Assembly: GCF_015694345.1 (NCBI RefSeq) | Contig: NZ_JADQDC010000012.1 | Location: 1-64,000, forward strand | Direction of reading: 5' to 3' | DNA from: Novosphingobium jiangmenense | Lineage (GTDB): Bacteria; Pseudomonadota; Alphaproteobacteria; Sphingomonadales; Sphingomonadaceae | Length of the DNA: 64,000 nt | Shown: positions 49,013 to 52,947 of the stretch, piece by piece | Layout: every line of letters starts with the position of its first letter | Numbering within the stretch: position 1 is the stretch's first letter | Position numbers and translations under genes: made by a program | Notes under the pieces: generated by a model | Told to the model about the DNA's origin: nothing | Databases searched by the model: none | The model's input: only the letters and a program-made list of their open reading frames with translations

Positions 49013-49978
49013 ATGGCGCAGACGATCAAGCGTGGCGGAAAGGGCGTGCGGCGGGCAGCAGCTGCGCGAACGACGCAACGCAAGGTCCACGCAGCGCGCC
49101 AGCAGACCGGTTCGGTGCTCGATACGGTCATGCACTGGCTGCCGTTCAGCGAAGAGACGCTGCACCGGATCGTGATGACGCTGATCCTCGCCGCTGCCGC
49201 CGGACTGGTTTGGACCGTGGCGGTCATGGCGGGCATCCCGGCGCTGGCATCGGAACAAGCCGCGTTGATCGCCTCGGACGCCGGGTTCAAGGTCAGCCAT
49301 CTCGAGGTGCGCGGCGTCAACCGCATGAACGAGCAGCGCATCTACGAGCGCGTGCTCGGCCAGAACGACCGCGCGATGACCACGCTCGATCTTGCCGCCT
49401 TGCGCGATGAGCTGAACCAGTTGCCGTGGGTCAAGGACGCCCGCGTCTCGCGCAAGCTTCCCGATACGCTGGTGATCGACATCGTCGAGCGCAATCCCCA
49501 CGCGGTGCTGCGCAAGCCAGATCGCATGGTGCTTATCGACGATACCGGCGTCGAGCTGGAGACGGTGAAGCCTGACAAGGCCAAGGGAATGCTGGTGCTG
49601 TCCGGCCTTGGCGTCGGCCAGCGGGTCGAGGATCTGATGCGACTGCTCGATGCTGCTCCGGCCCTGAAGCCGCAGGTCACCGAGGCCGAATGGATCGGCA
49701 ACCGTCGCTGGAACCTGACGTTCAAGACCGGTCAGGTGCTTGCCCTGCCGGAAGGTGACGAAAAGTCGGCAGGTGCGCTGCTGAGCTTTGCCCGCATGGA
49801 TGGCGTCAATCGTCTGCTTGGCGGCAAAGTTGCCGCATTCGACATGCGCGCCCCCGACCGCATCTACATGCGCGTGCCCGGCCATGCCGAGGAAGTGGCG
49901 GCGGAGAAGCGTGCCGCCGAGCAGGCGAAGGCCGAAGCCAAGCGCATCGCCGCTGCGGCCAAGAGCGACGAGGGCTGA
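49013..49978 (+). CDS. ftsQ: Divisome protein FtsQ
   Basis: 321 residues. A basic cytoplasmic N-terminus (residues 1-50), a membrane helix at about 53-75, and a periplasmic POTRA domain about 92-160 (FKVSHLEVRGVNRMNEQRIYE). The FtsQ beta domain follows (LPDTLVIDIVERNPHAVL). The last 30 residues are a charged Ala/Lys/Glu helix. It recruits FtsL and FtsB. A three-base gap separates it from ddl. Confidence 0.95.
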   Translation: MAQTIKRGGKGVRRAAAARTTQRKVHAARQQTGSVLDTVMHWLPFSEETLHRIVMTLILAAAAGLVWTVAVMAGIPALASEQAALIASDAGFKVSHLEVRGVNRMNEQRIYERVLGQNDRAMTTLDLAALRDELNQLPWVKDARVSRKLPDTLVIDIVERNPHAVLRKPDRMVLIDDTGVELETVKPDKAKGMLVLSGLGVGQRVEDLMRLLDAAPALKPQVTEAEWIGNRRWNLTFKTGQVLALPEGDEKSAGALLSFARMDGVNRLLGGKVAAFDMRAPDRIYMRVPGHAEEVAAEKRAAEQAKAEAKRIAAAAKSDEG

Positions 49979-49987
49979 TCCAAACCA

Positions 49988-51271
49988 ATGGCGACGCCCC
50001 GCATCACCAAGGTCTTTGCTGCCGTAAACATCGGCTCGTTCCGTGTCTCCGCGATGATTGCGGGACTGTCCGAGACGGGAGAGATGGTCGTGCTCGGTTC
50101 CGGCCATCGCGCCGCGCAGGGGATCAAGCGCGGCTACGTGACGGACATGCAGGCCGCCACCCATTCGGTGCGCGATGCGATCGAGCGCGCCGAGAAGATG
50201 GCCAACGTCGATATCCAGAAGGTCTGGATCGGCTGCGCCGGAGCAGGCCTCGCCAGCACCACGGCGCGGGTCGAGGTCGAGGTCGGCGGTCGGCGGATCG
50301 AGCAGGACGATATCGAGCATCTGCTGGTGGCCGGGCGAGGGGTGATCCAGCCGGACGGGCGCACCGTGCTGCACGCGCAGCCGGCGCACTACACGCTTGA
50401 TGGTGCCCACGGCGTGCCCAATCCCAAAGGGCTTCATGCCGAGCGGCTTGCGGTAGATATCCACGTCATGCTTGCCGATGGAGCGCCGGTGCGAAACCTG
50501 CGCGAGGCGGTGCAGAACGCGCACCTGGAAGTCGAGGCAGTGGTCGGCTCGCCAGTGGCTGCGGGTCACGCCTGTCTTACGCCCGAAGAGCGGGAACTGG
50601 GCGTGGCGCTGGTGGAGTTCGGCGCGGAAGTTACCACTGTCTCCGTCTATGCCGCAGGAATGCTGCTTGGCATGCAGGTGATCCAGTACGGCTCGGGCGA
50701 CATTACCGACGCCATTGCCTCGGCCTTCGGCATTCGCCGCTATCAGGCAGAGCGCCTGAAGTGCATGTCCGGCTCGGCCATCGCCAGCCCGGCAGACCAT
50801 CGCGAGATGATACCGGTCAACGCGCCGGGGGATCCCGAAGGTGGCCCGGTGGCGCGCCACGCCGACGACAAGAACCGTATTCCGCGTGCAGAGTTGATCT
50901 CGGTCATTACCCAGCAACTCGGGTTCTTCACCGAAGAGGTTGGCAAGTCGCTAAAGTCGATGGGCTTTGTCGGCCAGACCGGGCAGCAGGTCGTGCTGAC
51001 CGGCGGCGGTGCGCAGCTTCCGGGCTTGGCCGACTATGCGCAATCGGCGCTCGGCCGGCCGGTGCGCATCGGTTCGCCGCCGACGATGCTCGGCCTCCCT
51101 CCCGGCCACGCCACGCCAAGTTCCTCCACTCTGGTGGGACTGGTTCTGTTTGCGGCTGCCGATCCGGTCGACATCCGCGCGATCGGGCCTGCGCATGATC
51201 CGGTGGGAGGCGTGTACCGTGGGCGGAGGCTGCTGATTCGCTTGATCCGCGCGATCAAGGACTACTTCTGA
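49988..51271 (+). CDS. ftsA: Divisome actin-like protein FtsA with atypical phosphate loops
   Basis: 427 residues. The fold is recognisable from SHS2/1C text (RGYVTDMQAATHSVRDAIERAE), the adenosine loop VVLTGGGAQLPGLADYA and the C-terminal membrane-targeting helix GRRLLIRLIRAIKDYF. The nucleotide loops are unusual. Phosphate 1 reads AAVNIGSFRVSAMI (Asn14 where an acidic residue is expected). Phosphate 2 reads VALVEFGAEVTTVSVY (residues 207-221), with GAE in place of the usual GGG after Glu210. It should still tether FtsZ to the membrane. ATP binding may be weak or lost, which is an inference. Confidence 0.93.
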   Translation: MATPRITKVFAAVNIGSFRVSAMIAGLSETGEMVVLGSGHRAAQGIKRGYVTDMQAATHSVRDAIERAEKMANVDIQKVWIGCAGAGLASTTARVEVEVGGRRIEQDDIEHLLVAGRGVIQPDGRTVLHAQPAHYTLDGAHGVPNPKGLHAERLAVDIHVMLADGAPVRNLREAVQNAHLEVEAVVGSPVAAGHACLTPEERELGVALVEFGAEVTTVSVYAAGMLLGMQVIQYGSGDITDAIASAFGIRRYQAERLKCMSGSAIASPADHREMIPVNAPGDPEGGPVARHADDKNRIPRAELISVITQQLGFFTEEVGKSLKSMGFVGQTGQQVVLTGGGAQLPGLADYAQSALGRPVRIGSPPTMLGLPPGHATPSSSTLVGLVLFAAADPVDIRAIGPAHDPVGGVYRGRRLLIRLIRAIKDYF

Positions 51272-51465
51272 CGGGGTTTTACCTCGCCCTGCCGCTCGCA
51301 GCGCGCGATCTTGCCCCGTCATGGTGTTGCAACCTGTGGAAAAGGTTGCTGCGCCTTTGATTCGCAAAGCACGCTTGTGCAACAGGTTAACGTGAAGCTT
51401 TCAGATCCCGTCTTGTGCGCGTTCCTGCCAGCATCGAGACAAATGACCCGATTGGGAGACCGACT
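51272..51465 (+). promoter_or_regulatory. ftsA-ftsZ spacer with DnaA-box-like and GANTC motifs
   Basis: 194 bases without a gene. At 51335-51343 the minus strand reads TTTTCCACA, one base from the DnaA box TTATCCACA. A GANTC site (GATTC) lies at 51359-51363. A TTAAC half-site lies near 51388. In Caulobacter, ftsZ transcription is affected by DnaA and by CcrM methylation at GANTC. Short motifs like these occur often by chance. The spacer suggests ftsZ has its own promoter. Confidence 0.45.
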
Positions 51466-52947
51466 ATGAGCATCAACATCGGACCGCCGGCAATTGACGA
51501 ACTTCGTCCCCGGATCACGGTGATCGGGGTTGGTGGCGCAGGCGGCAATGCCATCGCCAACATGATCAACGCGCAGATCGAGGGCGTCGAGTTCATCGTC
51601 GTCAACACCGACGCGCAGGCGCTGAACAATTCGATCGCGGAAAACCGCATCCAGCTCGGGCCCGACATCACTCAGGGTCTCGGTGCTGGCGCCCGTCCGG
51701 AAGTCGGTCGCGCGGCTGCGGAAGAGACGATCGAGGAACTGGAGCGCGCGCTCGAGGGCGTGCACATGGTGTTTATCGCTGCCGGCATGGGCGGCGGCAC
51801 CGGTACCGGTGCGGCGCCGGTCATTGCCGAGGCCGCGCGTCGCAAGGGCGTGCTGACCGTTGGCGTGGTAACCAAGCCGTTCCTGTTCGAAGGAACGCGC
51901 CGCATGCGGTCTGCCGAAAGCGGTATCGAGGAACTGCAGAAGCACGTCGATACCTTGATCGTCATTCCCAACCAGAACCTGTTCCTGGTGGCCAAGGCCG
52001 AGACGACCTTCAAGGAAGCGTTCCAGCTGGCTGACGAAGTGCTGCAGCAGGGCGTTCGCTCGATCACCGACCTCATGGTCATGCCGGGCCTGATCAACCT
52101 CGACTTTGCCGACGTCCGTTCGGTCATGGGCGAGATGGGCAAGGCGATGATGGGCACGGGCGAGGGCGAAGGTCCGAACCGCGCACTGGAAGCGGCAGAA
52201 CGCGCGATTGCCAACCCGCTGCTCGATGGCGTGTCGATGCAGGGCGCCAAGGGCGTGATCATCTCGATCATCGGTGGCGACGACATGAAGCTGCTCGAGG
52301 TTGACGAAGCTGCCAACCACATCCGCGAACTGGTTGACCCGAACGCGAACATCATCTGGGGCTCGGCCTTCAATCCCGATCTCGACGGCAAGATCCGCGT
52401 CTCGGTCGTCGCCACCGGTATCGAGCAGAGCCAGGAGCAGGCGGAAATCGCTTCGCGTCCCGTCTCGATCCCGAGCAGCGCTCGTGGTCCTGCGGTGCCG
52501 ACGGCAGCTCCCGCAGCGCCGGTCTATACCCCTCCTCCGGCAGCTCCTGCCGAACCCGCGCAGGCGGCGTGGACTCCGGCGGTGGAACAGGTCCAGCCCG
52601 AAGTCCCGGCAGCGCCCGAGCCCGAGCCGCTCGACCTGACGCTGGACCTTTCGTCGGCGCAGGAAGAACCCGCTTCGGACGAACTGCTTCTCGGTGGGAT
52701 GGAAGCTCCGGCAGAACCTGCCGCGTTCGCGCCCGCTCCCCAGCCGGAGCCTGCTGCCGCGCCGCAAATGCCGCGTCTGGGCCGTGCGCCCGAGGCGGAA
52801 CCGGCCAAGCCTGCGGGCGGAAGCACGCTGTTCGAACGCATGGCCAATCTCTCGCGCGGCAATCGTGCACCGGCCGACGATGACGATGGCGACGAAGGCG
52901 GATCGCTCAACATTCCGCGCTTCCTCGGTCGTCAGAACAACCAGTAA
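51466..52947 (+). CDS. ftsZ: Cell division GTPase FtsZ
   Basis: 493 residues from the ATG at 51466, with GGGAGA seven bases upstream. The tubulin signature [13 protein letters not shown], the N-terminal [13 protein letters not shown] and the T7 loop ([14 protein letters not shown]) are intact. The GTPase core ends near residue 320. A linker of about 150 residues rich in Pro, Ala and Glu leads to the conserved C-terminal peptide [10 protein letters not shown], which binds FtsA and ZapA-like partners. The long linker is usual for alphaproteobacteria. A hairpin follows the stop. Confidence 0.98.

Follow-up and report, generated by a model that had tools for sequence, protein, structure and literature searches.

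The ftsA locus

The window, the whole stretch of 64,000 nucleotides that was analysed, contains an intact ftsA gene within the usual ftsQ-ftsA-ftsZ cluster (the dcw cluster). The same order is known from E. coli. The genes, and the C-terminal tail of the protein, are located as follows:

49013..49978, + strand: ftsQ, the neighbour upstream of ftsA
49988..51271, + strand: ftsA, an open reading frame of 427 amino acid residues without internal stop; the single FtsA match in the genome
51221..51268, + strand: C-terminal tail of FtsA, residues 412-427, amphipathic-looking by eye and presumed to be membrane-targeting
51415..52947, + strand: ftsZ, longest frame, with start GTG; an ATG is found at 51466

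The protein is the normal FtsA of a Novosphingobium-type bacterium. It scores 275 bits against the NCBIfam model TIGR01174 (FtsA), for which the cut-off is 175.85, and the Pfam domains FtsA (PF14450) and SHS2_FTSA (PF02491) both exceed their cut-offs. The second of these, residues 85-161, corresponds to the SHS2/1C domain that replaces the actin subdomain IB. The E. coli protein and its gammaproteobacterial relatives (TIGR01174; PDB codes 7q6d, 7q6f and 7q6g) share homology over the full length (E-value 2.6e-48 for 7q6d), the SHS2/1C domain, the adenosine loop and the tail. The closest named relative found is Novosphingobium subterraneum, whose FtsA is 98% identical (L141) and whose lineage is Sphingomonadaceae; the family-level group in the counts below was taken to be this family.

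The first-pass annotation had described the adenosine loop and the C-terminal tail as intact, and both the TGGGA segment and an amphipathic-looking tail are indeed present. The membrane-targeting role of residues 412-427 is assumed from E. coli FtsA. The chain ends in Tyr-Phe in 106 of the 107 other FtsAs that share the Asn14 residue discussed below, and in these 107 loci ftsZ lies beside ftsA in 105 and ftsQ likewise in 105, some loci having short flanks. The last 14 residues of the window FtsZ resemble an FtsA-binding tail, which is the role that we take this C-terminal element to have.

MreB is the one profile match in the same genome besides FtsA. SepF and ZipA gave no match in the genome of the window, so among these three tethers FtsA is the sole one recognised there. 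Takeover of the function by a further FtsA copy or by a different tether was also considered, and was rejected with one FtsA match and no SepF or ZipA match in this genome.

The phosphate-1 loop and residue Asn14

The segments of the nucleotide site are located in the gene as follows:

50015..50059, + strand: phosphate-1 loop, residues 10-24 (FAAVNIGSFRVSAMI), placed by sequence and alignment
50027..50029, + strand: codon AAC of Asn14, which aligns with Glu14 of E. coli
50549..50551, + strand: Ser188, at the position of the MreB catalytic Glu; Glu in 35 of 50 FtsAs of other classes
50612..50638, + strand: phosphate-2 loop, residues 209-217 (VEFGAEVTT), with Glu210 for Asp, Val215 for the hydrolysis Thr and Thr217 for Asp
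50747..50776, + strand: residues 254-263 (AERLKCMSGS), conserved
50999..51013, + strand: adenosine loop, residues 338-342 (TGGGA), conserved

The phosphate-1 loop reads AAVNIGSFRVSAMI and contains Asn14. Aligned by phmmer with E. coli FtsA (7q6d), the protein has Asn14 paired with Glu14 and Glu210 with Asp210, and both loops are ungapped. MAFFT places 38 FtsAs in the same register, and the genome's own MreB also lines up with them. The initial assignment of Asn14 to the acidic position of phosphate 1 is thus confirmed, as the residue aligns with the Mg2+-proximal Glu14 of E. coli with no gap in the loop. An AlphaFold model computed from 57 close sequences had a mean pLDDT of 41.7, too poor for checking how the hydrolysis residues of MreB map onto FtsA.

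An acidic residue, Asp or Glu, at position 14 had been taken as one mark of an FtsA, and the window protein has Asn there. It still passes TIGR01174, and it is therefore read as a variant of FtsA and not excluded from the family of proteins. Another Mg2+-proximal residue of E. coli, Ser84, is replaced by Ala in the window protein; Ser84 is kept in 86 of the 108 FtsAs with Asn14, so Ala84 is not a trait of the clade.

In E. coli FtsA, Glu14 is reported to lie 2.4 Å from the modelled Mg2+, and the variants E14R and D210A to be defective in vivo (PMC10213515). The same report gives an ATPase rate lowered by 39% for E14R (61% kept), with ATP binding said to be retained, and describes a rate that did not track function. 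With so modest a loss, and a rate that does not follow function, Asn14 alone may change little. Conversely, the reported loss of function of E14R in vivo means that a substitution at position 14 need not be harmless.

Distribution and ancestry of Asn14

It is important to describe the samples on which the counts are based. In the even draw across the order, 34 of 34 other FtsAs of the Sphingomonadaceae were fetched and aligned, together with 35 of 77 from the remaining families of the order; from the class outside the order, 48 of 102 were aligned, all of other families. The other classes are represented by 50 of 88 FtsA-bearing genomes, comprising the 30 best-scoring loci and 20 chosen from lower ranks; these classes are presumably beta and gamma, and all belong to one phylum. 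Among the 30 hand-picked genomes, many of them chosen on account of Asn14 in other genomes of their genus, 28 gave an FtsA match and two gave none. Relatives of Novosphingobium are strongly represented in the family set of 143: the window, two genomes of the same genus and the 80 nearest named loci of 240 make up 83 of its members. From outside the phylum, the FtsAs of S. aureus and T. maritima alone were compared. As a side observation, five genomes of genus g264 in the same phylum (G557, G563, G567, G588 and G596) each have a second FtsA match that also exceeds the curated cut-off. It scores roughly half as high as the main one and is possibly an FtsA paralogue.

Position 14 is Asn in 108 and Asp in 35 of the 143 FtsAs from the Sphingomonadaceae. 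Elsewhere in the same order it is Asp in 34 and Glu in one of 35, in families from the rest of the Alphaproteobacteria Asp in 45 of 48 (the remaining three being unreadable), and in other classes of the phylum Asp in 46 and Glu in four of 50. All 130 readable FtsAs sampled from the phylum outside the family are therefore acidic at this position, and the loss of the phosphate-1 acid is clade-wide. The even draw across the order found Asn14 in 14 of 35 genomes of the family. A degenerate nucleotide pattern designed to detect Asn14 matched 108 of 347 family genomes and 34 of 96 genera, while the reversed control pattern had no matches among the rows listed. An FtsA was present in 25 of 27 pattern-negative family genomes that were inspected, and Asn14 in 11 of those 25, so the count by DNA pattern is a lower bound.

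The Asn14 proteins form one branch of 14 rows, with support 100/99. When the columns of both loops are left out, the Asn clade comprises 39 rows, including one revertant, with an SH-aLRT value of 100. The trait requires two changes on this loop-free tree and, by its layout, these are one change from Asp to Asn on the stem and one from Asn to Asp. The change at position 14 was accompanied by replacement of Ser or Trp18 by Phe and of Lys19 by Arg; Phe18 is found in 106 and Arg19 in 107 of the 108 Asn14 FtsAs. In the 107 other genes Asn14 is encoded by AAC in 73 and by AAT in 34. Chance or sequencing error as the origin of Asn14 is excluded by the 108 sequences, which come from many assemblies and use both codons.

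Two members of the clade may be noted. L206, the FtsA of genome G427, is a back-mutant with Asp14 (codon GAT) that retains Phe18, Arg19 and Glu214 of the clade, and six other genomes drawn from its genus, g201, all match the Asn14 pattern. L212, the FtsA of genome G365, has kept Asn14 and lost Phe18 and Arg19 (VNLGSVSISAM).

The two Asn codons alternate, and the sequences examined show one return to Asp, which is a single transition away; the Asn residue thus appears to be maintained. The stem branch of the clade is long, with 0.6 changes per column, as would be expected if the nucleotide site were decaying under relaxed constraint and no longer mattered. Such neutral drift is disfavoured, and we consider it highly improbable, since Asn14 is fixed in 108 FtsAs in spite of the nearby Asp codons, the adenosine-side residues are invariant in all of them, the reading frame is intact and the neighbours ftsZ and ftsQ are each kept in nearly all loci. 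All 57 close relatives that were aligned share Asn14, Gly16, Ser17, Phe18, Arg19, Gly212 and Val215, and the earlier description of the loops as degenerate is not sustained by this conservation.

The phosphate-2 loop

The phosphate-2 loop reads VALVEFGAEVTTVSVY and includes Glu210, Gly212, Ala213, Glu214 and Val215 (EFGAEVTT). The annotation had noted Gly-Ala-Glu in place of the glycine run, and this is correct as far as the run itself is concerned; however, the acid (Glu210), the first glycine (Gly212) and Thr216 are all kept. In the 108 Asn14 FtsAs, position 210 is Glu in 104 and Asp in four, and position 214 is Glu in 95 and Asp in five. An acid at 214 is thus present in 100 of 108 Asn14 FtsAs compared with six of 35 Asp14 relatives within the family.

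These replacements could represent a conservative rearrangement of the site. Asn14 would hold a Mg2+-bound water molecule, Glu210 and the commonly acquired Glu214 would make up for the missing charge, and ATP would be bound and turned over nearly as in other alphaproteobacterial FtsAs. The near-isosteric relationship of Asn and Asp, the acids at 210 and 214 and the modest loss of rate in E. coli E14R, as reported (PMC10213515), are all consistent with this proposal. However, Thr215 and Asp217 have gone as well. Because Asn14 has a single origin on the tree, its association with an acid at 214 has no independent replicates, and S. aureus FtsA has an acid at 214 with Asp14 kept, so this residue may follow loops of the Val215 type instead of Asn14. 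The conservative rearrangement is a serious alternative, although we regard it as less likely than not.

The FtsAs of S. aureus (3wqt, 3wqu, 3wt0) and T. maritima (1e4f, 1e4g, 4a2a, 4a2b) are useful for comparison. S. aureus FtsA has a phosphate-2 loop of the same Val215 type with no glycine run (DIGEDVTQ). It differs from the window protein in keeping Asp in phosphate 1 (SIDIGSSSV), and it is a distant match, with E-values of 6.6e-24 and 1.2e-23. The T. maritima loop (NLGYNFT) also has no glycine run, but here the non-acidic residue is in phosphate 2, where Asn replaces Asp210. Its phosphate 1 presumably contains Asp. The S. aureus protein is reported to have been crystallised with ATP (3WQU, PMC5508204) and that of T. 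maritima with ATP-gamma-S (4A2B, PMC7613929). Loops of both the Val215 and the Phe215 type therefore occur among FtsAs crystallised with ATP or ATP-gamma-S, and the missing glycine run does not indicate that the ability to bind ATP has gone.

Stepwise loss of the hydrolysis residues

The hydrolysis motif of MreB, as reported from measurements, is E...T-X-[D/E] (PMC9597168). By sequence alignment, it corresponds to positions 188, 215 and 217 of FtsA, position 215 being that of the Thr which positions the water in MreB. An active centre of the MreB type would have Glu188, Thr215 and Asp or Glu217, while the window FtsA has Ser188, Val215 and Thr217. The MreB of the same genome keeps all three motif residues and the phosphate-1 Asp, so FtsA alone of these two actin-fold proteins has lost the motif. 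Relative to E. coli FtsA, the window protein has Asn14 for the acid at 14, Glu210 for Asp210, Val215 for Thr215 and Thr217 for Asp217.

The sampled sequences place these losses in order. Glu188 is found in none of 143 FtsAs of the family and none of 83 other alphaproteobacterial FtsAs, but in 35 of 50 from other classes. Thr or Ser at position 215 is absent from all 143 family members, present in 67 of the 83, and Thr occupies it in 48 of the 50; the family has Val, Leu or Ile there, and Arg once, and its Asp210 is mostly replaced by Glu. Position 217 is Asp or Glu in none of the 143 and in at most seven of the 83, and Asp in 48 of the 50. Thr215 occurs together with an acid at 217 in five of the 83. 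In other classes of the Pseudomonadota, the majority of the FtsAs sampled thus have Asp14, Glu188, Thr215 and Asp217; the sampled Alphaproteobacteria are without Glu188 and mostly without Asp217, the Sphingomonadaceae are also without Thr215, and the Asn clade is also without Asp14. The loss at 215 is not special to the family, since 16 of the 83 other alphaproteobacterial FtsAs have neither Thr nor Ser there.

Two further features of the alignment may be mentioned. E. coli FtsA has Ala188, whereas Glu188 is present in 35 of the 50 FtsAs of other classes (L228-L277); judged from this alignment, the E. coli protein may be an untypical model for the FtsA ATPase. Just past phosphate 2, residues 225-259 contain a family-specific cluster, for example Gly228, Asp238, Asp241, Phe247, Arg251 and Cys259.

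The adenosine side and ATP binding

Residues Ala254, Arg256, Lys258, Gly262, Ser263, Thr338, Gly339, Gly340 and Gly341 are identical in all 108 members of the Asn14 clade. From actin-fold motifs, we take segments 254-263 and 338-342 to face the adenosine. A nucleotide site kept so strictly, including the invariant loop residues of the close relatives, is probably in use, an indirect sign that the window FtsA may bind ATP.

It had been proposed that this FtsA binds or hydrolyses ATP poorly, or that it uses a different nucleotide. Weak binding, or another nucleotide, would make FtsA mainly a passive tether. The change of the phosphate-1 acid and of two loop glycines might point in that direction, and the additional Glu side chains near the phosphates could repel them. 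However, the conserved adenosine side argues against a different nucleotide, ATP or ATP-gamma-S is present in crystals of FtsAs that have no glycine run, and both loops are tightly conserved in close relatives. This explanation is considered unlikely. Of the original proposal, poor hydrolysis remains plausible, while the glycine run as an indication of poor binding does not stand in view of 3WQU, 4A2B and the E14R variant.

Proposed role of the nucleotide and comparison with known proteins

FtsA would anchor FtsZ to the membrane and bind ATP. Its hydrolysis centre would have been dismantled stepwise, with the Mg2+-proximal Asp14 replaced by Asn last, in one large clade that includes Novosphingobium. 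The ATP would be held for a long time as a structural, filament-promoting cofactor, and hydrolysis would be slow. We give about an even chance to the reading that this FtsA binds ATP as a largely structural cofactor, with slow hydrolysis and a centre lost in steps. Several points may be raised against slow hydrolysis: Asn is approximately isosteric with Asp, Glu210 and Glu214 may supply carboxylates, E. coli has Ala188 yet is reported to hydrolyse ATP, and one member of the clade, L206, has returned to Asp14.

In Hsp70, which shares the fold, we take Asp10 to be the Asp of phosphate 1. Replacement of this residue by Asn (D10N) is reported to eliminate the ATPase activity (PMC12248113), although this is an engineered laboratory mutant of a chaperone. 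Spiroplasma MreB3 is likewise a bacterial actin without the E...T-X-[D/E] motif, which is reported to polymerise and to release phosphate slowly; in contrast to FtsA, it is the MreB of a wall-less swimmer, with no FtsZ tether function, and its replacements are Asp147, Lys174 and Ser176 (PMC9597168). Among FtsAs, that of D. radiodurans is reported to polymerise in an ATP-dependent manner with no ATPase detected (PMC4281207), and little or no ATPase is said to be common for the protein (PMC6450608). An FtsA with no turnover is therefore not unheard of.

What seems to be new is that an already depleted hydrolysis centre has, with a single origin, also lost its Mg2+-proximal carboxylate across a whole clade. 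Among the open-licence papers listed for FtsA with Sphingomonas, Novosphingobium, Erythrobacter or Sphingomonadales, no title or start of an abstract dealt with the nucleotide site of FtsA in these bacteria.

Reports on the need of FtsA for ATP hydrolysis differ: the E. coli protein reportedly requires its nucleotide-dependent activities (PMC10213515), whereas several attempts on FtsA found little or no ATPase (PMC6450608, PMC4281207). A wider proposal, which we advance only tentatively and do not consider probable, is that the whole clade divides with an FtsA that binds but does not turn over ATP. Hydrolysis would then be dispensable for division and ATP a fixed structural cofactor, the centre having been lost stepwise across the Alphaproteobacteria with the Mg2+ carboxylate last. 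A clade in which the sole recognised tether lacks Asp14, Glu188, Thr215 and Asp217 offers a test, in natural proteins, of the need of FtsA for its ATPase. L206, with Asp14 among Asn14 congeners, allows a natural comparison without damaging engineered mutants. The Asn clade may thus serve as a natural experiment on whether FtsA must burn ATP.
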